In this document: one piece after another, positions 1,767 through 39,484 of the stretch | Layout: every line of letters begins with the position of its first letter | How positions within the stretch are numbered: position 1 is the stretch's first letter | DNA from: a virus | Length of the DNA: 64,000 bases | IMG/VR virus record: IMGVR_UViG_3300031215_000012 | Coordinates: 1-64,000 of that record | Direction: 5' to 3' (one strand) | Notes under the pieces: model-generated | Told to the model about the DNA's origin: nothing | Databases searched by the model: none | Seen by the model: only the letters and a program-made list of their open reading frames with translations | Translations under genes and position numbers: made by a program

Positions 1767-4700
1767 TTAGAGTACTCTAATTAATCCATTTTTTATAACG
1801 GTTTTTTTATTTCCGTTTGTGTCTTCCAATTCTAAAGATATATTATATTCTCCTTCTTCTGTGAATAAATAAACCATATATTTATTCAACCAATCAAATA
1901 CTACTTCACCTGTTTCAACTTTTGTTATTCTCCAAACTGGGTTTTTATAACCAGGCATCTTTGACATAACATAATTAAAATACACTTGTGTATAAGGTTT
2001 AATATCTCGTTGATAATAAAGAACATCTAAACTGTTCCAAGTTGCATTTGTTGTTATACTTCGAGCATATTCACCACCATATACATTATTGTATTTAATA
2101 ATGTTAATTTCATTACTTATGTAAAATCTTTTATATGCTATTATTTTTTCATCAGCAAGTGCGGTACCTCCTTGATAAGAGCGAACGATATTAAATTCCC
2201 ATTCTTGAAAGGGTGAATTTACGTTTAAATCCTCAGATAAATCCAATAAAGTTGTGATAGTTCCAGGAATAATATAAGTCATTCCATCAATTTCAATAGA
2301 ACCTCCAGTTGCTCCTGTGGCACCTGATAAAATATTATCAGTTGTATAAATATCAAATGTTGATGTTACATCACCAATTGCACCAAATCCATTTAGTGGT
2401 GTATTATAAGGTGATATTATAGCTTCATTTGTGTTAAAATAAAATCTATTAGGTGCTTCAAATTGTTTTGAAACTGCAACTATTTTATGTATAGTTGTTG
2501 CCCCATATTCTACAATTGGTCTATATTCATATATAAAACTAGATAAAATAGGATAGGTTGTTTCATCCAATGCACTTAATTGTGTTGTATAATCAATATA
2601 TACGCCTTTTTCTGTACTTGGTAATGATATATTTCTTGATAATGTTAATGTTTCTAATTCAACTCCACTTTCTCTATTAACAATTATGTCAATTGAAGTA
2701 GCACCTATATTAATATCTGTAATATAGAATTTAGTAAATGTAGGACTTAAAGTGTCCCAATATAAATGATCTGCTTCATCCCATGTAATATCATCATCAA
2801 GATTTTTCCATGTATAAGAGTTAATATCACCTTTACTTCTTAAAATTGCATCTTGATTAACTAAATTTTGATAGAATTCAACTCTATCTGTACTGTGCCA
2901 TGTTATTAAAGCGTCATTTGTTATTGTATTTGGTAAGAATGGTAAATCCCATGTACTTGCCATTTCATCCCAAGAAATATTTTCTAATTCATCCCAAGTT
3001 ACATCATGAAAATCCATTATTTTCCAAGCAGTAAAGTTTGGCATTTTTTGTTCAACTGTAATATAACTAACTTCTGTATTTCTACTAAATGATCCATACA
3101 TATCATATAAAGTCAATTCAACTGTATATTCACCTTCGTGTGGTAAATTTACTGCCCATTCCTTTAATAATCTTGGATTACCTTTTATAGATTTTTCCCA
3201 ATAAGGTGTTTCGTCAGTTGCATCTTTGTAGATATACCATTCAATTTCATAAAAATTTGAATTTCCTATATCATCCCAAGAAACACCACTAAATGGATCA
3301 TTTGCTGTTGCACCCATGTTGTATGATGCAGTTGGGAATCCGGCATCTGAAGAAAGGTCAAAATCATTATAATTATGTTTTTCGTCAAGACTGTTCCAAG
3401 TTACTTCTGTATCTTGCCATGTAATATCAAAACTTGTGTTTTTTAATAATATAGGATAACCAACAGGAATTTCTTCGTTGTTGTCTAATTCTAATACATT
3501 AAAATTTCTATCAAAGAAATATTGTAAATAAGCTTCTTTGTAATTATCCACAGGAAGATCACCATGTAAGAAATCTTGATATGATAAAACAGGAACTCCA
3601 CCTGCATAAGAACCTTGTGTTACTACTGAATCTAAAATAGCACCTGTATCGAATCTTTCAACGAATAAAATTTGATTTCCATCTAAATTTATATAGAATT
3701 GGTCAAAGGGGGCTCCTAAAGTTAGAAGTCCTTCGTATAATGCTAACATGTTGTCATTATCAGTACTTTGATATGTTGCTGTTATTTCAAATCCTACGTT
3801 ACTAACAGTATCGTATATTTTTAATGTGTTATCATAGAATGAATTTGTTAATGTAAATTCACGTACTTTTAATGTACTTGTACCATCTAAAATTAAATCA
3901 GGACCAATTTTAGCACCTACCCATTCTAAAGGTCTTAAATCTTGTATAAATCCATAAGATGATGGAAATACAGAAAATGTTGGGTTAATATTAATATCAA
4001 TACTATCAACTCTATTAAATGAATTCCAATAATTTAATTCTATTTTTGTATAATATAATGCTTCACCTACAATATCAACTATTCTACTGTTTAACGGTAA
4101 AAAGTATTTTTTTAATTTATCTTTAAGTGCGTATAGTTTTATTAAAATTTCATCAATTGTGAATTGAAAAGTTTCTTGTGTTATTGGTAAACCATCTTCA
4201 TCAAATTCACCAGTTTCTTCCGTAATTTGATAGTACATTCCAAATTTATTCGTTTTAGAATAAATTTTAGATGGGAATAAGTCGGATAATTCCTTTGTGT
4301 TATTAGAATTTAATAATACACTTTCAATATCAACAGGTCTTAATTTACCAAAGTTCTCTGAATCAACTTTTACGTTTTTCCAGTATTCTTTTATTGCTAA
4401 AGATTCAAATCCAAAATATTTTACAATATTGATTAATGCTTTGTAACTACCAAGATACGGAAAAATATTGTGAAATTCAAGTAAAAGTTCTTTTCTTTTC
4501 TTGTTTACTAAATTAAAATCAATTTCTTCCTCTTTTACATTCATTGAATCGAAGATTAAAAAATCTTTTGAATTCAATGTGTGACCCATTGTTTCTAATA
4601 ATAATGGTAATCTTGTATCTTCGGCAACAGTATCAACAAAGAAAAATACTTCACCTATTTGTTCTTTAGACATATTATCTCTAAAGTACATATTCACTTT

Positions 4701-5192
4701 ACCAACAAATGAATTTTCGTCACTTGCAGAAAATCCTATATTTGCTGTTTGATAATCTTGTCTTAAAATATTAATATCATAAGAATCTGGGATGTTTGTA
4801 TATGTGATACCACCTTTAACTACATCTGAAAATGAGGCATCATACGTAGCTTCTATCGTCATTTCTGTTTTTTTATTAATATAGTATGCATCGTTATCTA
4901 AAGTGATGCTATACACAAAGAAATTATCTTCTGCTGTTTTATCAATTTCAAAAACTATTTCACATTCATCATTAGTAATATTAGTAGGTTTTACATACAG
5001 GAATTTATTATATTCATCACTATAAACCTTTTCAAGTACAATTACTTGTTCTGATTCAATTAATTCAACAGAAACAGCCTGTTCTGCAAGGGTATAGTTT
5101 CCCCTGTACAATCCACTTGTTGAATCGTAAAATAAGTTAAGGTTATTACCTTTTTTATTGAAGAAATGTAGATTTTCCTTTTTTATAGACAT
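1767..5192 (-). CDS. large baseplate wedge protein, gp7-like by position
   Basis: 1141 aa, comparable to T4 gp7 (about 1030 aa), and placed downstream of gp25 and gp6 as in T4 wedge clusters. The first 250 residues are beta-rich. Residues about 580-1000 carry recurrent Trp/Asp motifs of the form (I/V)(T/S)WDx(L/M/A), for example VTWDEL, ISWDEM, ITWDEA, VSWDDI and TWNSL, suggesting repeated beta-sandwich units. No catalytic motif was seen. The assignment as gp7 equivalent rests on size and gene order rather than recognised sequence identity. Another large wedge-to-fiber connector is possible. Confidence 0.5.
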   Translation of the reverse strand: MSIKKENLHFFNKKGNNLNLFYDSTSGLYRGNYTLAEQAVSVELIESEQVIVLEKVYSDEYNKFLYVKPTNITNDECEIVFEIDKTAEDNFFVYSITLDNDAYYINKKTEMTIEATYDASFSDVVKGGITYTNIPDSYDINILRQDYQTANIGFSASDENSFVGKVNMYFRDNMSKEQIGEVFFFVDTVAEDTRLPLLLETMGHTLNSKDFLIFDSMNVKEEEIDFNLVNKKRKELLLEFHNIFPYLGSYKALINIVKYFGFESLAIKEYWKNVKVDSENFGKLRPVDIESVLLNSNNTKELSDLFPSKIYSKTNKFGMYYQITEETGEFDEDGLPITQETFQFTIDEILIKLYALKDKLKKYFLPLNSRIVDIVGEALYYTKIELNYWNSFNRVDSIDININPTFSVFPSSYGFIQDLRPLEWVGAKIGPDLILDGTSTLKVREFTLTNSFYDNTLKIYDTVSNVGFEITATYQSTDNDNMLALYEGLLTLGAPFDQFYINLDGNQILFVERFDTGAILDSVVTQGSYAGGVPVLSYQDFLHGDLPVDNYKEAYLQYFFDRNFNVLELDNNEEIPVGYPILLKNTSFDITWQDTEVTWNSLDEKHNYNDFDLSSDAGFPTASYNMGATANDPFSGVSWDDIGNSNFYEIEWYIYKDATDETPYWEKSIKGNPRLLKEWAVNLPHEGEYTVELTLYDMYGSFSRNTEVSYITVEQKMPNFTAWKIMDFHDVTWDELENISWDEMASTWDLPFLPNTITNDALITWHSTDRVEFYQNLVNQDAILRSKGDINSYTWKNLDDDITWDEADHLYWDTLSPTFTKFYITDINIGATSIDIIVNRESGVELETLTLSRNISLPSTEKGVYIDYTTQLSALDETTYPILSSFIYEYRPIVEYGATTIHKIVAVSKQFEAPNRFYFNTNEAIISPYNTPLNGFGAIGDVTSTFDIYTTDNILSGATGATGGSIEIDGMTYIIPGTITTLLDLSEDLNVNSPFQEWEFNIVRSYQGGTALADEKIIAYKRFYISNEINIIKYNNVYGGEYARSITTNATWNSLDVLYYQRDIKPYTQVYFNYVMSKMPGYKNPVWRITKVETGEVVFDWLNKYMVYLFTEEGEYNISLELEDTNGNKKTVIKNGLIRVL

Positions 5193-5198
5193 TTATTG

Positions 5199-5420
5199 TT
5201 ATTTATTTGGATTATCCTCTGTGTAATTATAAAGATTCTCAAGAAGTTTTACAGAATAATAGTTATTCATTTTAATCATTTCTAATTTCTTTAAAAATCC
5301 GCTCATAATTTCATTTGGTGTACCTGTTAGGTATGGGGACATAGTTTTTTCAAATATGTCTAATTCCTCTTCTTTAACAGGTTCGTATGCTTGTTGTATT
5401 TGCGATTTACTCAGTCTCAT
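5199..5420 (-). CDS. small protein between wedge genes
   Basis: 73 aa, acidic and helical (MRLSKSQIQQAYEPVKEEEL). It lies between the gp6-like and gp7-like genes with gaps of 6-8 bases, so it is almost certainly translated from the same mRNA. It has no recognised domain. A baseplate assembly or connector function is possible from context only. Confidence 0.55.
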   Translation of the reverse strand: MRLSKSQIQQAYEPVKEEELDIFEKTMSPYLTGTPNEIMSGFLKKLEMIKMNNYYSVKLLENLYNYTEDNPNK

Positions 5421-5428
5421 GATTTACC

Positions 5429-7237
5429 TTATTTTCTTGGTATTGATTCTCTAACTACGATATTTAGTGCTGATAAATTATCAGTATTTATACCGTCTAT
5501 ATATTCTATTCCATTTCTATCAAAGAATCCACCTCTAATAAGTGGTAATTCTTTATTTCCAATAACAATATCCCCAAATTCGTCTAATCCTAAGTTTGGA
5601 TTTTCTCCAGGTGTTAAAATTATTTTTTCTGTTGTTTCTATTACTGTACTATCATTCAAGTTAGGAACATCTACATTTTCTCTAACTTTGTTCAATAGGA
5701 CATTTGTAGCTTCTGTGTTATTATAATTAATGTTTTTGAAATAATATCCATTAGCAATTGCCGTTTCATTTACTTCTGAAATAAAATCAACATAAACAGA
5801 ATCTACTCCACTAACTTCTTCAATTATTTTAATAATATCAGAACGTGGAATTTTATCTCTTCTTTGTAAAGAAAGGAAATATTCACCTACTTTGTCTGTA
5901 ATTTCTGCAGAAACAACATCTTGACTTACAATATCATCAAATACTCTAATAAAAACATTTAGTGAATATCTTGTAATGATAGGGTCAATTATTTTTAATT
6001 CTGTTGAAATTAATTGTCTACCACTTTTGTTAATAACATCATATACAGCATCTTTATCTTGTTCTGTTAAGTAGAAATTATTTATATCTGTACTAAAGTA
6101 ATCTGAATTACTTTGTACTTTTCTTGTAATGTCTGGTAATAAAAATAAATATACAATATTATCATCATCTAAATATTGATCTCCAAATGTATTAAAGGCA
6201 TCTATGTAACTGAATTGGTTGTACTTAGATAAGAAATAAGTATAATTAGTAGGATTAGCAAGTACTAAACCTCTACTATTTTTATTCATTAAAAACCTTG
6301 TAAGTTCTTTATTCTCAGCGTCTGCACCCATAGTAATCTTTTTAGAAATACTAACATCAAACACTTCGTTTAGATCCAATTCGCCACCAATTCCATCAGA
6401 AACTTCATCAACAAACTCAAAAATAATAGAAGATGAGGATTCTCCGAGGTTTCCACCAGAACCACTTGAAGCAATCCAGTCGATCTGTATATTTTCACCA
6501 ACTTCTGGTATGTACCCATAATCCGGATTACCAAAATATATATCCACTCCACCATTTATTCCCGTTTTCACTAGAACCCCTTTTTCGTTCTTTTTCATGT
6601 CATAAAGGGATTCGAATTTTTTAAATTCTTGACCATTAACAGAAATAGTAACTGTATCGTTTTCAATCTGTGCGAATCTTGTTGGAATGTTGAATGATTG
6701 TAAATCAACTCCATTACCTGTAAAGTTCGATGTATTTAATTCCCCTTCTATAACTTGAAAGGACATTAAATTAGAACTTGACTTTGGAATATAGACTGAA
6801 TCAGTGTCTAATAACACTAAATAATTTTTTTGATTGTTTTTACACAACATTTTTGTGTAATTTACTATTTGAATATTAGAACCTGGAATATCATTTGCAA
6901 CTCCTGGTTTAATTTTCATTGAAATTTCTCCTTTTGCACTTATTGGTCTACTAGGATTGTGACCTGTTAGTCTTGCAAGACCTAATATAGAATTTTCTTT
7001 ATATGCTGTTAGTATGTTTCTTTCGTTTAAAGAATCTTCTAAATAGAAGTATTGTAATTTGTTTAATTCGTTTAAAACATCAATAATTTGTCCATAAGGA
7101 CTTGATGGTGAAAAGTTTAAATCTCTTTTGTCATATTCTTTAACTAGAAACGTTTCTAATTGTTGTTTTAGTTGGTCATCGAATAACCTACTCTTATCTA
7201 TAATCTTATTAACTTGGTCTTTTGCTTTCTTTGACAT
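5429..7237 (-). CDS. baseplate wedge protein gp6 (Baseplate J-like)
   Basis: 602 aa, close to T4 gp6 (660 aa). The N-terminus (about 30-100) has the conserved helical region including SPYGQIIDVLNEL and LGLARLTGHNPSRP. The middle is beta-rich, with NEVFDVSISKKITMGADAENKELTRFLMN. The C-terminal third has the gp6/gpJ-type domain around LISTELKIIDPIITRYSLNVFIRVF and a late repeat-like segment. gp6 dimers form the inner ring of the T4 baseplate. It sits just after gp25, as in many contractile tails. A TTAAATA element lies about 20 bases before its ATG. Confidence 0.8.
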   Translation of the reverse strand: MSKKAKDQVNKIIDKSRLFDDQLKQQLETFLVKEYDKRDLNFSPSSPYGQIIDVLNELNKLQYFYLEDSLNERNILTAYKENSILGLARLTGHNPSRPISAKGEISMKIKPGVANDIPGSNIQIVNYTKMLCKNNQKNYLVLLDTDSVYIPKSSSNLMSFQVIEGELNTSNFTGNGVDLQSFNIPTRFAQIENDTVTISVNGQEFKKFESLYDMKKNEKGVLVKTGINGGVDIYFGNPDYGYIPEVGENIQIDWIASSGSGGNLGESSSSIIFEFVDEVSDGIGGELDLNEVFDVSISKKITMGADAENKELTRFLMNKNSRGLVLANPTNYTYFLSKYNQFSYIDAFNTFGDQYLDDDNIVYLFLLPDITRKVQSNSDYFSTDINNFYLTEQDKDAVYDVINKSGRQLISTELKIIDPIITRYSLNVFIRVFDDIVSQDVVSAEITDKVGEYFLSLQRRDKIPRSDIIKIIEEVSGVDSVYVDFISEVNETAIANGYYFKNINYNNTEATNVLLNKVRENVDVPNLNDSTVIETTEKIILTPGENPNLGLDEFGDIVIGNKELPLIRGGFFDRNGIEYIDGINTDNLSALNIVVRESIPRK

Positions 7238-29570: not shown

Positions 29571-30707
29571 CTAAGCACCACATCCACCACCACCAAGAGC
29601 ACAACTATCACCAGAATTGTTACCACCATCAAAAATAGATGATGTATTAACAACTTTAGCTTCACTAATATTATCTGACGCTGAAAGTTTCTTATTCCCA
29701 GTAATTTTAGATTTTGTTCTTGTGTAATATGCACCTGTTTTTAATCCTTGTTTCCAAGCATACATTAACGCACTTGAAATCTTAGAGTATTTAGCATCTG
29801 GGTGATAAACATTCAATGATTGTGATTGGTCAACATATTTATTTCTAATAACAGACAAATCTAATAATACTTTTTGAGATATTTCCCATACAGTTTTGTA
29901 TCTAAATCTTACATCTTCTGGTATTTCAATAATATCTTGTACACTACCTTCTTTTGATATAATCTTATTTCTAATATCCTCAGACCATAAATCTAATTCG
30001 ATTAGTTCCTTAACAAGGTATTTGTTTACTACTATAAATTCTCCATCTCCAACCATTCTTGTGAATACATTAGATGTAATAGGTTCGAAACATTCGAATG
30101 CTCCCAATAATATAGCACTTGATGCTGTTGGCATTAATGCCAATAACAATGAATTTTTCATTGGTATCGGTTTTCCTGGTTCTAATGGTGACCATCCTTC
30201 TATGTAAGTTTCACCTTTTGAATACTTAGAACCTTCCCAAGCAGGATAATTTTCGCCAGTTTCAACAGCAAGATTCATACTTTCTGTAAGTGCCGCCTTG
30301 TACATTGCTTCAAATATCTGTTCATTCCATACTTTTGCTTCTTCTGATTCAAAAGATATTTTCTTTTTTGCAAAGAAATCTGCTAATCCGGCAACACCAA
30401 TTGCAATTGCTCTTTGTTCTTCACCAGCTTTTTTACTCCAATCATCAGACCATTTGTTGTTATTGATAACTTGGTTTAATGCTCTAACTAATACTTTAAC
30501 AGATTTTGCAATTGACTTAATGTTATCGTGTTCTGCTAAGTTTACTGATGCAAGTGTACATTGTGGTGTATATTCTGGTTTTGATGCTTGCATAATCTCA
30601 ATACAGTTATGTACTAATATATCATTAGCATAAAAGTTGTGATTACTCTGAACGGTTATATCATAAACTTGTTCAGTTTTTTTAAGTTTTTTTATTTTTA
30701 GTCCCAT
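29571..30707 (-). CDS. nrdA: split-intein C-part fused to C-terminal half of ribonucleotide reductase NrdA
   Basis: 378 aa. Residues 1-34 are an intein C-fragment with block F (VYDITVQSNHNFYAND) and block G ending VHN before Cys35. The remaining 344 residues are NrdA: C35-I-E matches the N-L-C-x-E active-site strand, so Cys35 becomes the thiyl-radical cysteine (Cys439 in E. coli numbering). TPQCTLASVNL supplies a second active-site Cys, PTASSA is the conserved loop, and the C-terminus ends with the redox tail CALGGGGCGA. A Met directly at the start of the intein C-part is what natural split inteins show. It must be spliced in trans to the N-half encoded at 30956-32443. Confidence 0.9.
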   Translation of the reverse strand: MGLKIKKLKKTEQVYDITVQSNHNFYANDILVHNCIEIMQASKPEYTPQCTLASVNLAEHDNIKSIAKSVKVLVRALNQVINNNKWSDDWSKKAGEEQRAIAIGVAGLADFFAKKKISFESEEAKVWNEQIFEAMYKAALTESMNLAVETGENYPAWEGSKYSKGETYIEGWSPLEPGKPIPMKNSLLLALMPTASSAILLGAFECFEPITSNVFTRMVGDGEFIVVNKYLVKELIELDLWSEDIRNKIISKEGSVQDIIEIPEDVRFRYKTVWEISQKVLLDLSVIRNKYVDQSQSLNVYHPDAKYSKISSALMYAWKQGLKTGAYYTRTKSKITGNKKLSASDNISEAKVVNTSSIFDGGNNSGDSCALGGGGCGA

Positions 30708-30939
30708 AATAATTTAAAATATTATATTTAATTTGTTTCACATCAGAAAGTATATCTTCTAAATATACATATTTCCATTTTTTAATATTGCAGTATTTAA
30801 TACCTGCTTCTTTTTTTAGTTGTTCGTTTTTATATCCATCTTCTCCATTAACAAACCCTTTAATGTCTAATAAGTATTTTTTGTCATCTATTATTAAAAG
30901 AAAATCTGGTAAATAATATATATTATCTTCTTTTTTCAA
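30682..30939 (-). CDS. nuclease-like ORF inserted between the NrdA split-intein halves
   Basis: 85 aa from a TTG start; no ATG is available upstream. LPDFLLIIDDKKYLLDIKGF has the PD-(n)-DxK spacing of the PD-(D/E)XK nuclease fold, followed by GYKNEQLKKEAGIKY, a typical helix. It overlaps the downstream intein C-part by 26 bases and is separated from the N-half by 16 bases. Free-standing endonuclease genes between split-intein halves are known as 'fractured genes'. It is short and could be decayed. Alternatively, one-base changes on each side would fuse all three frames into one intein with an internal nuclease. Confidence 0.55.
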   Translation of the reverse strand: MKKEDNIYYLPDFLLIIDDKKYLLDIKGFVNGEDGYKNEQLKKEAGIKYCNIKKWKYVYLEDILSDVKQIKYNILNYYGTKNKKT

Positions 30940-30955
30940 AACAGAACAAACAAAC

Positions 30956-32443
30956 TTATGAGTTGCTAACTATGTCTAAGACATCATATTCTAATAAGTC
31001 TTTTGCCATGACATATCCACGATTCTTTGTGAAAATTTTATGTTCTGGTGTACATCTTATCGTCTTACCCGTGTCCTCGTCCTCTATTTCCATAATTTTT
31101 GCATCTTCATTCATAAGAGCACCTGCAGTTATTAATTTATATTCTACTGTGTCTTTTTGAATGTCTTTTGATTTCACAAATATTTGTTCTCCTTGGTTGT
31201 ATAATTCAACTATTTCAGAAATCTCCATTTTTTTGTAGATATTATTAATCTTTACCTCTAATATAGAATCACCTGACAAACAAAGATTACTTTGTGCAAT
31301 AACACCAATGTTATCTTGCATGTTGATTTTATTTGCATTGTCCTTATAAAATACATAAGGTGTTCCTGATTCAACTTGTGAACGAATGATTGCATCCCAT
31401 ATTTTTCTTGGGTCAATTTGTGTTCCAATACCTAAATCAATTGCTTTTTGATAGTGTTCTTTGAATTCAACACCGTGGATTTCGTGAAACGCTGTTAAAC
31501 CGTTTTCTTTGATTTCATTAGGACAAAATAAGTAATAAGGTGTTCCATTACTTAATGCTTCCATAAAAACATCATCAATAGTAACTGCAGTAAACAAATC
31601 TCTTGCTCTGTTTAGTTCTTCTCCAATTGGCAATCTTAGTTCTAAGAATTCTAAAATATCTCTGTGCCAAGTTGATAAGTATAATGCACACGAACCAGAA
31701 CGATTTCCTTGTTTATAGAATCTCATGTGAGATTGAACCATGTCAGCGAACCTTACAACACCACCAGCATATCCTTTGAATGATTTAACAAGACTTCTTG
31801 AACTTCTTATCCTGTCGATATTCAATCCAATTCCAGAACCCTCTTTTGACCCGTGTGAAATCTTATCAAGTGTTTCATTAATACCTTCAATAGAATCATC
31901 TTTAAGTGTTGTAAGGTTACAAGAAATTAATCCATTTCTACCGTCAATACCCGCGTTTGATAAAATAGGTGTTGCAAAGTTTATTTTCTTTTCATATAAT
32001 TCATCTAACAACATTCTTCTTTCTTTGAATGAATTTGGCCATAAATGTGTTGCAACCCTGTTGTGCATCATTGATGGTATTTCTACTGGTGTTCCTTTGT
32101 CACCTTTTTTAGAATATTTTGTAAGAAATGTAGAAGCAGCAAACGAATCAAATTTATCATCTACTAATTTGTGTTCTACCTCTAACAATTTAGATTGTCT
32201 TGAAATAAGAATTCTCCCACCTAATAATGCATAATCAGGGTGTTCAATCTGCAAATCAGCAGCTTGGAAGGCAATGATTTCATCAATGTCTGTTGCTGTC
32301 ATACCATCTGTAATGTGTGGTACAACTCTTTGAAATAACTTATCAGGGTTAACTTGCAATCCTTTAGATTGTTGTTTAAGTCTTGTTAAGATTTTATTTG
32401 GTTGAAACGATTGTCGTTTTCCAGACCTTTTTATGATTTTCAT
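30956..32443 (-). CDS. nrdA: N-terminal half of ribonucleotide reductase NrdA fused to split-intein N-part
   Basis: 495 aa. Residues 1-387 are class I NrdA: ATP-cone region (about 1-90), SCNLTTLKDD with the redox Cys near 175, and HGSKEGSGIGLNIDRIRS. At SNL the protein passes into an intein at Cys388, with block A (CLSGDSILEV) and block B (KTIRCTPEHKIFT), ending after 108 intein residues. The junction SNL/C is the catalytic strand, so no active enzyme can form without splicing. Joined with 29571-30707 the spliced protein would be 731 aa, near E. coli NrdA (761 aa). NrdB lies just upstream. Confidence 0.9.
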   Translation of the reverse strand: MKIIKRSGKRQSFQPNKILTRLKQQSKGLQVNPDKLFQRVVPHITDGMTATDIDEIIAFQAADLQIEHPDYALLGGRILISRQSKLLEVEHKLVDDKFDSFAASTFLTKYSKKGDKGTPVEIPSMMHNRVATHLWPNSFKERRMLLDELYEKKINFATPILSNAGIDGRNGLISCNLTTLKDDSIEGINETLDKISHGSKEGSGIGLNIDRIRSSRSLVKSFKGYAGGVVRFADMVQSHMRFYKQGNRSGSCALYLSTWHRDILEFLELRLPIGEELNRARDLFTAVTIDDVFMEALSNGTPYYLFCPNEIKENGLTAFHEIHGVEFKEHYQKAIDLGIGTQIDPRKIWDAIIRSQVESGTPYVFYKDNANKINMQDNIGVIAQSNLCLSGDSILEVKINNIYKKMEISEIVELYNQGEQIFVKSKDIQKDTVEYKLITAGALMNEDAKIMEIEDEDTGKTIRCTPEHKIFTKNRGYVMAKDLLEYDVLDIVSNS

Positions 32444-35183: not shown

Positions 35184-35246
35184 ATAATATTAAAGTTTAA
35201 AAATGACTTTAATATTTTAATTTATAGTGTGAAATATTTAATAAAG

Positions 35247-35253
35247 TTAAATA
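35247..35253 (+). promoter_or_regulatory. TTAAATA element, putative phage late promoter
   Basis: TTAAATA lies 5 bases before the ATG of terL. The same heptamer at the same distance precedes the plus-strand genes at 44082 and 54353, and at 7 bases the endonuclease at 35869. On the minus strand it precedes many virion genes, usually by 5 or about 20 bases. T4-type late promoters have TATAAATA. Confidence 0.5.
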
Positions 35254-35257
35254 TAAT

Positions 35258-35821
35258 ATGGCAAAAGAGAAAATAGCTTGGATGGATAAAGATTTCGTCC
35301 CAACATTCGGGGAGGAATTTAACAATGTAGTAGAACCAGAATTTGATGCTGATATTTGGACAACAGAACTCGTAGATAAACTACTTGATAAAGTAGAAAA
35401 TTATGGGTTAGATTTGAATAAATCTAAAAATCCTTTCTTTGAGAAAAACCCTCAATTGAGAAAAGGTCGCGTTGCTTTTCAAATGACAAACATGGAACTT
35501 GATGAATTTAAAAAGTGTAGAAAAGATATTTTACATTTTGCGAATAATTACGTACAACTTATGACACCAAAGGGTATTGGACATATTAAGTTGTACCCAT
35601 ATCAAGAAGAAATGTTGTTAAACTATCAATCAGGTAAAAACAATATTGTAGTAGGGTCAAGACAAATTGGAAAATGTTTTTTTTCTAATACTCAGATAGT
35701 TACGAAACAATTTGGTACTATTCCCATCTATAAATTATGGTGGAAAGTCATAAAGAAAAAAACGATACTTGATTATTGTAAGTATCGTTTATATTGTCTT
35801 TATGACTGGTTAGAAAAATAA
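35258..35821 (+). CDS. terL: N-terminal part of large terminase fused to split-intein N-part
   Basis: 187 aa. Residues 1-139 are the start of a T4 gp17-like packaging ATPase, including LYPYQEEMLLNYQ (adenine-binding region) and the P-loop VGSRQIGK at 132-139. At Cys140 the sequence becomes an intein block A (CFFSNTQIVTKQFGTIPIYKL) and stops after 48 intein residues, before any block B. The P-loop Thr is missing and is supplied by the other half at 37538-39484. The break between blocks A and B matches the unusual short-N split inteins known from other phage terminases. Confidence 0.9.
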   Translation: MAKEKIAWMDKDFVPTFGEEFNNVVEPEFDADIWTTELVDKLLDKVENYGLDLNKSKNPFFEKNPQLRKGRVAFQMTNMELDEFKKCRKDILHFANNYVQLMTPKGIGHIKLYPYQEEMLLNYQSGKNNIVVGSRQIGKCFFSNTQIVTKQFGTIPIYKLWWKVIKKKTILDYCKYRLYCLYDWLEK

Positions 35822-35868
35822 ATGTCAATATCTATCACATCTGCGGAATTGTTGATTAAATATAGTAT

Positions 35869-37557
35869 ATGATAACAAATGAAGATATTGCTGGTTATAT
35901 TCTTAAATATTCTATAACCGAACCCACATGTGTTAATTGTGGTTGCTCAACTATTAAAAGAAACAAAACAGGCAAATTACAACCTCCAAGTACATTAAAA
36001 TCTACTTGTTCTAGACTATGTGCAAAAGAATATTCTATTACCAATAGAATTAAAGAAGATACTAAGTCCGCTATTGAATATTTAGAAAGTAACAAATTAG
36101 AATATATAAATGATGCTATTTCTATTTATATACACAAATCTAATATGTTATCATATCCAAAATGTACATCTTGTGGTTCAGACAATATGTATATATATAA
36201 AGAATTGACAAATGGTGATAGAGTAGTCACTAGCATTAAAAAATATTGCTCTAATAGTTGTAGTTCTAAAAATACATCAGTCGACAGATTACAAAAAGCA
36301 AAAGTAACTAATTTATTAAAATATGGTGTTGATAACCCCATGAAATCTGAATTGATTAAAGAAAAGGTAAAACAATCTAATATTGAGAAATACGGGGTTG
36401 ATAATCCTATGAAGAATCCAAACATCTCCAATAAAAGTTCTACTAGAAAAAGGGAATTGTTTAATGTAGAAGAACATCGAGAAAAAATAAAAAATAGACT
36501 AGAACACCAAAGACTAGAACAAATAACAAATTGGGACAATATTTTAAAAGATAAAAACATATCAGTTTCTTCATATACAAACGCCAGTCACTCTATACAA
36601 TTGCAATGCAACTCCTGTTCTACAGTGTCCGATTGGTCAGTTTCACATTTACACAAATTGAAACATTTGGATTTTGCTCCTTGTAAAAAATGCAATTCTA
36701 ATAAATTAGGTGGCGGTAAATATTCAAAAATACACTTGAAAGTAGTTGATTTTTTAAAAGAACACAATATAGATTTCGTTGAAAATACTTTTATACTAGG
36801 CAATAGAGAAATTGACATTTATATACCAAATATGAATATTGGGTTTGAAATTAATGGGTTATATTGGCACTCATCAGAAAGATTAGGTAAAGAGTATCAC
36901 AAAATGAAAACTTTACTAGCAAAAGATATAGGTATAAAATTGATTCATTTATGGGAGGATGATATAAACTATAAATTCGAGATAGTTAAATCTATGATAC
37001 TAAATACTATTGGTAAATCTAAAAGGATATTTGCTAGAAATACTACAGTAGTAGAATTATCCAATAACATTACTACTAGTTTTCTAAAAGAAAATCATAT
37101 ACAAGGTACTTGTAATAGTAAGACTAGATTAGGTCTTATATATGATAAGAAAATAGTTGCTATTATGACTTTTGGTAAAAATAGATTTGAAAATGGTAGT
37201 ACAGAACTTATCCGATTTTGTAATATTCTAAACACTACTGTAGTAGGTGGAGCTAGCAAGTTACTTAAATATTATACCAGAAACTTTAAATACGAAAGAA
37301 TAATAAGTTTTTCTAATTCTGACTTCTCTGATGGTAATCTTTATAATAAACTTGGATTCGATTTCATCAAAGATACTCCACCAACTTTGTATTGGACGAA
37401 ACACGGAATACGAGAAAATAGAATGAAATACCAAAAGCACAAGTTAGATATACAACCACATGAAGAAAATTTAACAGCATCTGAAATAATGAAAAGTAGA
37501 GGATTTTTTACTATACATGGAGTAGGTAATAAAAAATATGAATATAATGAGAAATAA
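35869..37557 (+). CDS. Vsr-like (EDxHD) homing endonuclease in the terL split-intein gap
   Basis: 562 aa. The N-terminus has zinc-ribbon-like CxxC pairs (21-51, 99-131), then two YGVDNPMK repeats (152-182) resembling nuclease-associated modules, another CxxC pair (247-276), and the catalytic region REIDIYIP (313-320), GFEINGLYWHSS (326-336), EYHK and IHLWEDD (360-365). That order fits the EDxHD family of free-standing homing endonucleases found in fractured genes and relatives such as I-Bth0305I. The C-terminal 190 residues likely bind target DNA. It starts behind its own TTAAATA and overlaps the terL C-half start by 20 bases. Confidence 0.85.
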   Translation: MITNEDIAGYILKYSITEPTCVNCGCSTIKRNKTGKLQPPSTLKSTCSRLCAKEYSITNRIKEDTKSAIEYLESNKLEYINDAISIYIHKSNMLSYPKCTSCGSDNMYIYKELTNGDRVVTSIKKYCSNSCSSKNTSVDRLQKAKVTNLLKYGVDNPMKSELIKEKVKQSNIEKYGVDNPMKNPNISNKSSTRKRELFNVEEHREKIKNRLEHQRLEQITNWDNILKDKNISVSSYTNASHSIQLQCNSCSTVSDWSVSHLHKLKHLDFAPCKKCNSNKLGGGKYSKIHLKVVDFLKEHNIDFVENTFILGNREIDIYIPNMNIGFEINGLYWHSSERLGKEYHKMKTLLAKDIGIKLIHLWEDDINYKFEIVKSMILNTIGKSKRIFARNTTVVELSNNITTSFLKENHIQGTCNSKTRLGLIYDKKIVAIMTFGKNRFENGSTELIRFCNILNTTVVGGASKLLKYYTRNFKYERIISFSNSDFSDGNLYNKLGFDFIKDTPPTLYWTKHGIRENRMKYQKHKLDIQPHEENLTASEIMKSRGFFTIHGVGNKKYEYNEK

Positions 37558-39484
37558 ATTACAATTACTGGTTATATTTTTAATCTCCAAAATAGAGAAG
37601 TACCAATATAGAAATTTGGAATTGGACGAAAACCATATAAACAAGAAAATAATAGATTCATTTGAATTAGATGATATTCAAGTAGAATCTGATGCTGGTT
37701 GGGTTCCCGCATCTCACTTACATTGTACACAACCATATAAGGTTTACAAAGTAGAATTAGAAAACGGGTTATTCTTAGAATGTGCTGATAATCACATTGT
37801 ATTTACAAGTACGTTAGAAGAAAAATTTGTAAAGGATTTAACAACTAAAGATATTCTTTTTACTAAAGATGGTCCCGCTAAAGTTAAATCAATATCAAGT
37901 TTACCTATTAGTGTTGGTATGTTTGATTTAACTATTGATACTCCAGAACACCGATACTATACGAATGGTATATTAAGTCACAATACCGTTGTTGCTGGTA
38001 TTTTCTTAACTTGGTTCTTAATTTTTCACAAGGATAAAAATATAATGTTAGCAGCAAATAAAGGTGATACAGCAAAAGAAATATTAGACAAAGTAAAGAG
38101 TATTATTGCATACCTACCATTCTGGTTAAAACCTGGACTATTCACATGGAACATGTTCAGTATTATGACTGATGCAGGGTCAAGAATACTAGCAACAACG
38201 ACAACTGCTAAGGCAGCGATTGGTTATTCTATTCACTTATTATTTTTAGATGAGTTTGCCCACGTTAACGAGAACATTCAAAGAAGTTTCTGGGATAACA
38301 TTTATCCGGTAATGGCGGCTGATCCAAACGCAAAACTTATAATAACAAGTACCCCAAATGGTTACGAATTATTCCAAGAATTGTATCAATTTGCTGTTGA
38401 TGGTAGAAATGGATTTAATCACATGTTAATTCCTTGGACTGATGTTCCGGGAAGAGATGAAAGTTGGGCAGATCAACAAATTGCGGTTATGGGTGAAGAT
38501 GCCTTTAATGAACAATTTGCTTGTGCATTCCAAAGAAGTGATTTATTGTTACTTTCTGCAAATGAATTAAAAGCATTAAGAGGTAACAGAAAAGAATTTA
38601 TATCTCACGAATTTGAAATATTTGAAAAATACAATATATCTTACGATAATTTATTATTTCGTGAAGATTACAACATAGAAAATTTAAAACGAGATAAAAT
38701 AATAGTAAGTGTTGATTTAGCTGAGGGTCTTGGTAAAGATTATATTGTAATGCAAATATTCAAATTAACACCAAAGAGAGAACTTGATATTTTTATTCAT
38801 GATAGTGAAATATTTCAATTAGACAAACACTTTGTACTTGACCAAATTGGTTTATATCGAGATAATCTAACAAGTATTGAAGATTTTGCTAAACTTTTCT
38901 ATAATATGTTTTTCACAGGAAAAATTATAAACATTGATAATGTTAAAGCGGTTGTCGAATGGAATACTTATGGTAGTTATTTTGACCAATTACTTAAAAC
39001 AATGTACGGAGGTGATTTATATGAAGATGCTGTATATCTTAAAACCTTTCATAGAAAAGGTGCCAAGTCAAAAAGAAATGGTATTAGACAAGGTTTAGAC
39101 AAAGGTAAAAACTGTGCGGAGGTTAAGAACCTGATTAAACAAGGTATAATTCAAATCTATGATAAATGGTCAAGTGATGAATTTAGTCACTTTACAAGAA
39201 ACAAAAGAGGGTCTTATGAAGCTAGTACAGGACATGATGATATGGTTATGGCTTGTGTTAACGTTGTTGAGATGTATAGAGATACATATTACCTTGATAT
39301 GGTTGCGGAAGCATACGAACTCCTTGAAGAGGTTGTAAAAAATGAGATTATGAGTTTAATTAATAATGGAAGTGCTCCAGATGATTCAACAGACTTTTTA
39401 GCAGAAGGTATGGGTGAAAATGAATTTGGTCAAGGTAGTGGCTTATTTGATGCTATGAATGACAAAATGGACGGATGGTTATAA
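37538..39484 (+). CDS. terL: split-intein C-part fused to C-terminal part of large terminase
   Basis: 648 aa (second Met at residue 4 also possible). Residues 1-149 are the intein C-part: block B-like GLFLECADNHIVFT, block F MFDLTIDTPEHRYYTNG and block G ending SHN149. The extein begins at Thr150, the P-loop Thr that completes GK/T. Then follow Walker B LLFLDEF (Asp238-Glu239), ITSTPNG, and the nuclease acids in VSVDLAEG, VVEWNTYG and GHDDMVMA. The reconstituted terminase would be 638 aa (T4 gp17: 610 aa). It cuts and packages DNA at the portal. Confidence 0.92.
   Translation: MNIMRNKLQLLVIFLISKIEKYQYRNLELDENHINKKIIDSFELDDIQVESDAGWVPASHLHCTQPYKVYKVELENGLFLECADNHIVFTSTLEEKFVKDLTTKDILFTKDGPAKVKSISSLPISVGMFDLTIDTPEHRYYTNGILSHNTVVAGIFLTWFLIFHKDKNIMLAANKGDTAKEILDKVKSIIAYLPFWLKPGLFTWNMFSIMTDAGSRILATTTTAKAAIGYSIHLLFLDEFAHVNENIQRSFWDNIYPVMAADPNAKLIITSTPNGYELFQELYQFAVDGRNGFNHMLIPWTDVPGRDESWADQQIAVMGEDAFNEQFACAFQRSDLLLLSANELKALRGNRKEFISHEFEIFEKYNISYDNLLFREDYNIENLKRDKIIVSVDLAEGLGKDYIVMQIFKLTPKRELDIFIHDSEIFQLDKHFVLDQIGLYRDNLTSIEDFAKLFYNMFFTGKIINIDNVKAVVEWNTYGSYFDQLLKTMYGGDLYEDAVYLKTFHRKGAKSKRNGIRQGLDKGKNCAEVKNLIKQGIIQIYDKWSSDEFSHFTRNKRGSYEASTGHDDMVMACVNVVEMYRDTYYLDMVAEAYELLEEVVKNEIMSLINNGSAPDDSTDFLAEGMGENEFGQGSGLFDAMNDKMDGWL

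Follow-up and report, generated by a model that had tools for sequence, protein, structure and literature searches.

How can a phage package its DNA when the gene for its packaging ATPase is broken inside the ATP-binding site? The question is raised by the large terminase gene (terL) in positions 1 to 64,000 of IMG/VR virus record IMGVR_UViG_3300031215_000012 (the window, 64,000 nucleotides). Three open reading frames (ORFs) in a plus-strand cluster at 35258-39484 encode the N-terminal part of TerL with the start of an intein (IntN), an endonuclease, and the rest of the intein (IntC) with the C-terminal part of TerL. The break lies between the Walker A Lys and Thr (GK/T, the slash marking the insertion point). 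Judged from its sequence, terL is a fractured gene of an already known kind, and very probably it is expressed as two polypeptides that dock through helices and are joined by trans-splicing, and its intein was probably spread by the homing endonuclease gene (HEG) between its halves.

Anatomy of the broken terminase gene

The terL N ORF (35258-35821) encodes 187 amino acids (aa), which are the 139-aa N-extein and 48 intein residues starting with the Cys at 35675. The C ORF (37538-39484) encodes 648 aa, comprising 149 intein residues that end in SHN, then Thr, with 499 aa of terminase in all; comparison with relatives places its homologous start at the ATG at 37547, giving an IntC of 146 aa. The intein has C1, ADNH (block B His, 37793-37795), MFD (block F), and SHN/T, and it is split between blocks A and B. 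Matches of the window intein to Pfam Intein_splicing and NCBIfam intein_Cterm are below cut-off. Joined together, the exteins give 638 aa, which are 72% identical end to end to the intact 637-aa TerL of relative L004, and the match of this product to T4 gp17 (E 2e-48) continues unbroken through GK/T. A first-pass annotation of the window had given these coordinates and ORFs, placed the split between blocks A and B, expected a joined product of about 638 aa, and proposed the T4 gp17 alignment as a check; all of this is correct, and its C-part of about 149 aa stands for the ORF opening at 37538, with the start used by relatives shortening it to 146 aa.

Trans-splicing at the ATP site, which the same annotation considered necessary, is upheld as the predicted route to a working enzyme. 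TerL-N with IntN and IntC with TerL-C would be made as two polypeptides, and association of IntN with IntC would yield a folded Hint domain. With Cys1, a C-terminal Asn, and Thr+1, the intein would then join Lys139 to Thr by class 1 protein trans-splicing, restoring the Walker A motif, and the packaging ATPase would be active only thereafter.

The break is not an assembly artifact because independent contigs share it, intact alleles exist, and the 638-aa product aligns end to end. Viral contigs were scanned for relatives, and the identical break is present in L002 (3300037245), L003 (3300009149), and L008 (3300024262), which come from three other metagenomes; L008 and L003 have three differences across 7.4 kb. 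Misassembly is thereby ruled out, including the misjoined endonuclease region that the annotation had named as the finding that would undo its reading. Four close relatives (L004-L007) have an intact terL with no intein, and in all four the empty site reads QIGK/TVVAG, so the insertion is precise. These intein-free sequences form one clade beside the fractured ones in the TerL tree. A second scan of viral contigs using the C-extein did not find further close relatives.

A group I or group II intron carrying an endonuclease could produce a similar layout by interrupting a contiguous intein, with RNA splicing rejoining the message. Group I introns split terL in other phages, including the Jug phages, where splicing is backed by a metatranscriptome (PMC12363816), and terL of ICP1 is RNA-spliced (PMC10448857). 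However, Rfam searches revealed no group I or II intron at the terL locus among matches up to E 10, and none at the gathering threshold in the window and ten relatives. In some relatives the halves are 11-191 bp apart, which is too short for a group I intron; in others 11-12 kb separates them, occupied by genes on both strands. The protein ends at the break are also conserved and closed by stop and start codons. An intron is very improbable, given the lack of any ribozyme match and gaps that are either shorter or more complex than cis RNA splicing would allow.

Neither half keeps an intact Walker A motif after the break, as would be the case if terL were decaying and the phage were defective or used another terminase. 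Pooled ratios of nonsynonymous to synonymous substitution (dN/dS) are 0.39 for the IntN tail, 0.23 for the IntC head, 0.18 for the IntC core, and 0.07 for the C-extein; with near-saturated synonymous sites and overlapping pairs, these values are rough. They point to purifying selection on both halves, docking segments included. The halves contain no stops or frameshifts, the architecture is retained across wide divergence, and the 66,965-base record has only one terminase match. Decay is therefore barely credible, and trans-splicing of a functional TerL is the favored explanation.

The terL cluster is apparently the only plus-strand operon in the window, amid minus-strand genes. The sequence TTAAATATA occurs at 35245-35257 and 35856-35868, about 11-13 bases upstream of the terL and endonuclease starts. 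Of five copies in the window, four stand ahead of large ORFs, and it is a possible promoter or leader motif.

The endonuclease and the stages of the split

An IntC profile identified at least 490 confirmed relatives on viral contigs. The best 80 of the 490 were fetched and 78 were classified: 61 are split with halves near each other, three are contiguous, 12 have no N half in the fetched flank, and two are truncated. The class 1 intein positions (C1, ADNH His, MFD, SHN, and T+1) are all present and conserved. An AlphaFold2 model of the contiguous relative L017 (194 aa, mean predicted local distance difference test score, pLDDT, 88) has a helix at 21-34, a single long helix at 37-68, and then the Hint sheet. 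Its top PDB matches are the inteins VidaL, gp41-1, and Cat (by fold, E 9e-9 for VidaL and 1.5e-6 for Cat; by profile, about 1e-9 for both), and the modeled fold is the Hint fold of a class 1 intein. MAFFT alignments mixing IntN and IntC fragments misplaced the fragments and were excluded from folding.

The 562-aa ORF between the halves, earlier annotated as having an EDxHD/Vsr-type core, does have one: its family profile matches I-Bth0305I (3r3p) over the E..NG.YW core (E 6e-4), and the protein matches phrog_3339, annotated as homing endonuclease (E 7e-104). Its C-terminal 178 aa match the Mom-like DNA modification family phrog_1384 (E 1.3e-6), and the model of this part matches phage Mu Mom (8bv8, E 5e-7); the model is weak overall (pLDDT 64), and only the C-terminal part, which is backed by the sequence match, was interpreted. 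The protein resembles a nuclease fused to a DNA-modification-like domain, with a possible role in modifying DNA. An endonuclease-profile scan turned up few relatives, and its search patterns were probably too narrow. This endonuclease would cut intein-free terL and spread the 2.3-kb cassette (35675-37984) by co-conversion; alternatively, it may spread only itself, into contiguous inteins.

Relatives present the same site in intein-free, contiguous, HEG-split, HEG-decayed, HEG-free, and relocated-half states. Contiguous inteins with the long helix are found in L017, L025, and L026. Most HEG-split relatives have a Vsr-like gene of about 320-380 aa (35 ORFs in one similarity cluster), and the larger HEG family of the window is also in L002, L029, L036, L084, L087, and L099, in reverse orientation in L029 and L087. 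The HEG is decayed in L021 (61-aa remnant), L060, L088, and L119, and in L100, L104, and L105 IntN runs on into what remains of a dead endonuclease, its final ~21 codons. Other relatives are split with no HEG: L065 (11 bp between halves), L124 (18 bp), L075 (42 bp), L062, L089, L053, L042, L073, and L054, with gaps of 11-224 bp. The TerL tree requires about eight separate changes for this state, suggesting about eight occasions on which the split survived loss of the HEG. In LR756501 the halves are separated by 12.4 kb that holds about a dozen ORFs, on both strands, among which no endonuclease match was found; in a separate 152,665-base contig they are about 11.2 kb apart.

Some comparisons bear on homing. 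L020 (split with HEG) and contiguous L026 are mostly 92-100% identical in terL and 67% identical beside the HEG; there, L020 is 95% identical to contiguous L025, from which it elsewhere mostly differs by 20-40%. This is as expected from co-conversion around a homing event, and possibly it was instead L026 that lost an endonuclease by recombination. Between the window and L002, IntN DNA is 87.5% identical and the adjoining N-extein 72%, which would fit an exchange of the intein alone. At 4618-6472, L003 has the smaller Vsr-like type in reverse orientation, together with fragments of the window's HEG family and a duplicated IntC start, and layered invasions at one site may be the source.

L002 also has a terminator-like hairpin (GGAAA...TTTCCTTTTT) at 4168-4322, between the IntN gene and the endonuclease, which suggests that the two are transcribed separately. 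In L031-L034 the C-terminal TerL ORF is 1115 aa, compared to about 740 aa in neighbors, indicating a further insertion, perhaps a second intein. TerL inteins with Ser+1 (GK/S) occur in L130-L132 (Firmicutes contigs from metagenome-assembled genomes, MAGs) in split with HEG, contiguous, and split without HEG forms. L133 (Clostridia MAG contig, 3718-5631) has a split intein in a helicase-like gene at NVGK/C, related to the IntC core of the window and lacking the helical head.

Helices at the split point

The 50 distinct IntN sequences all have, by eye, a tail of the type TFLEKIKxxLYKLLxxL, and 47 of them match the strict pattern. None of 300 shuffles was as amphipathic as the tail or the IntC head. 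In the L017 model they form one continuous helix, and the break point of split relatives falls near residue 52, in the middle of it. Tail and head probably act as the first docking interface, where IntN and IntC would make initial contact. The alternative is that they are simply both ends of an old helical insertion and play no part in docking, with the fragments associating through the Hint core alone. VidaL and Cat associate without such helices, association of Cat has been described as clustered hydrophobic contacts (PMC11766414), and dN/dS is higher in the tail than in any other segment tested. Yet both ends stay amphipathic helices after loss of the HEG, even where the halves have moved apart, and we consider this alternative rather unlikely.

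VidaL, gp41-1, and Cat align with the IntC profile only from position 34-44 onward and thus lack the head. The contiguous TerL inteins of cultured phages likewise have the core and no head, and among phage records the head is found only in the uncultured huge-phage genomes LR756500, LR756501, and LR756503. On balance, we favor the view that uncultivated phages carry a large, undescribed class of split TerL inteins in which an HEG inserted into the helix of a contiguous intein, the half-helices became the docking interface, and the split persisted through HEG death, turnover, and separation by 11-12 kb. Several points weigh against docking by half-helices and a one-way path to it. The head pattern KKILKxIIxFLIxLIEKYEYRNL fits 60 of 62 distinct IntC sequences, a share biased by the use of this motif as one of two IntC search patterns. 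In the contiguous L017 model, tail and head are a single helix and not a hairpin. In any one pair, the change may run from contiguous to split or back. A helical hairpin in the contiguous intein was considered and dropped, as the model has one long helix after a short one.

Split-intein origins have so far been argued from finished examples. Because one homologous site shows all of these states, the path to the split and its one-way character become testable on natural pairs such as L026 and L020. If the helices dock the fragments, the family would also be a natural source of sequence-diverse, heterodimerizing split inteins with Thr+1 in which to look for fast, orthogonal trans-splicing.

The DNA of the IntN tail contains an 11-bp inverted repeat. 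It is perfect in the window, one pair is changed on both arms in the L002 hairpin, and it was not seen in relatives other than L002. It may serve as a terminator or regulatory hairpin, or as an endonuclease site.

A second split gene in the window is nrdA. Its 248-bp gap holds a start-less 90-aa frame with weak TnsA-type endonuclease likeness (E 4e-4, below the Pfam cut-off), which may be a dead HEG and would make this a second locus where the split outlived the endonuclease. Two proteins of one phage, TerL and NrdA, are thus predicted to trans-splice, and the packaging motor, as well as NrdA, would depend on this reaction.

Table 1. Positions of terL, intein, endonuclease, and nrdA features in the window.
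Feature	Positions	Strand
terL N-extein, 139 aa, ending SRQIGK (Walker A through Lys)	35258..35674	+
IntN, 48 aa starting Cys1, with stop codon	35675..35821	+
11-bp inverted repeat AAACGATACTT/AAGTATCGTTT within IntN tail	35760..35790	+
IntN tail TILDYCKYRLYCLYDWLEK, conserved amphipathic helix, putative docking helix	35762..35818	+
Endonuclease gene, homing-endonuclease-like, 562 aa, phrog_3339 / phrog_559 family	35869..37557	+
DUF7487 region of endonuclease, KYGVDNPM repeats	36295..36498	+
EDxHD/Vsr-like nuclease core, residues about 287-381	36727..37011	+
C-terminal Mom-like / GNAT-fold domain of endonuclease	37021..37554	+
IntC head MRNKLQLLVIFLISKIEKYQYRNLELDENHIN, conserved amphipathic helix; ATG overlaps endonuclease stop (ORF may open at 37538)	37547..37645	+
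IntC splicing core, blocks B, F, G, ending SHN	37646..37984	+
terL C-extein, 499 aa, starting Thr(+1)-VVAG, with stop codon	37985..39484	+
nrdA (ribonucleotide reductase large subunit), broken by canonical split intein, Cys+1	29571-32443	-
nrdA part with IntN, about 104 aa	30956-32443	-
nrdA part with IntC, 34 aa	29571-30707	-

Comparison with known systems

The nuclease core of the window endonuclease is shared with I-Bth0305I, with EDxHD/Vsr-like homing endonucleases, and with the "homing endonuclease EDxHD" of Klebsiella phage Muenster. The window endonuclease differs from the I-Bth0305I group in its length of 562 aa, its DUF7487 region, and its C-terminal Mom-like domain. TerL mini-inteins of Ackermannviridae and Campylobacter phage CP220 are contiguous and lack a helical insertion between blocks A and B, and the Ackermannviridae inteins occupy the identical GK/T site. 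Among cultured phages, Pseudomonas phage MIJ3 has a split PolB intein whose halves flank an endonuclease gene; unlike the window, the host protein is PolB and not TerL, and its IntN is of the canonical type, including blocks B and N4 (PMC6892783).

Atypically split inteins have an IntN of 15-37 aa, and the IntC of Cat is 104 aa; GOS-TerL has Ser1 and Cys+1 (PMC11766414, PMC12707363). AceL-TerL, GOS-TerL, Cat, and VidaL share with the window the split between blocks A and B, a short IntN, a long IntC, and a homologous core. The window differs in its longer IntN (48 aa) and IntC (146 aa), in having Cys1 and Thr+1 where GOS-TerL has Ser1 and Cys+1, and in the IntC head of about 33 aa, which VidaL, Cat, and gp41-1 lack. 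It therefore falls outside a definition of atypically split inteins by an IntN of about 15-37 aa and no extra interface. The likeness to reported atypically split TerL inteins that the first-pass annotation had drawn holds for the split site and not for the IntN and IntC lengths, Thr+1, or the helical extensions.

The combination of a fractured gene, an atypically split intein, and a Vsr-like endonuclease is already known. Dassa et al. reportedly described in 2009 fractured genes in which a phage enzyme gene is broken by a split intein and a free-standing Vsr-related endonuclease gene lies between the halves. The literature, in which key work from 2009-2018 was covered through reviews, gave no earlier account of the Walker A site combined with Thr+1, of a helical interface at the split, or of the full series of stages at one site. 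Window terL is like those fractured genes in its broken gene, split intein, and Vsr-related endonuclease between the halves, but it differs in its Walker A site and helical split interface, and its relatives add contiguous, HEG-decayed, HEG-free, and relocated states.

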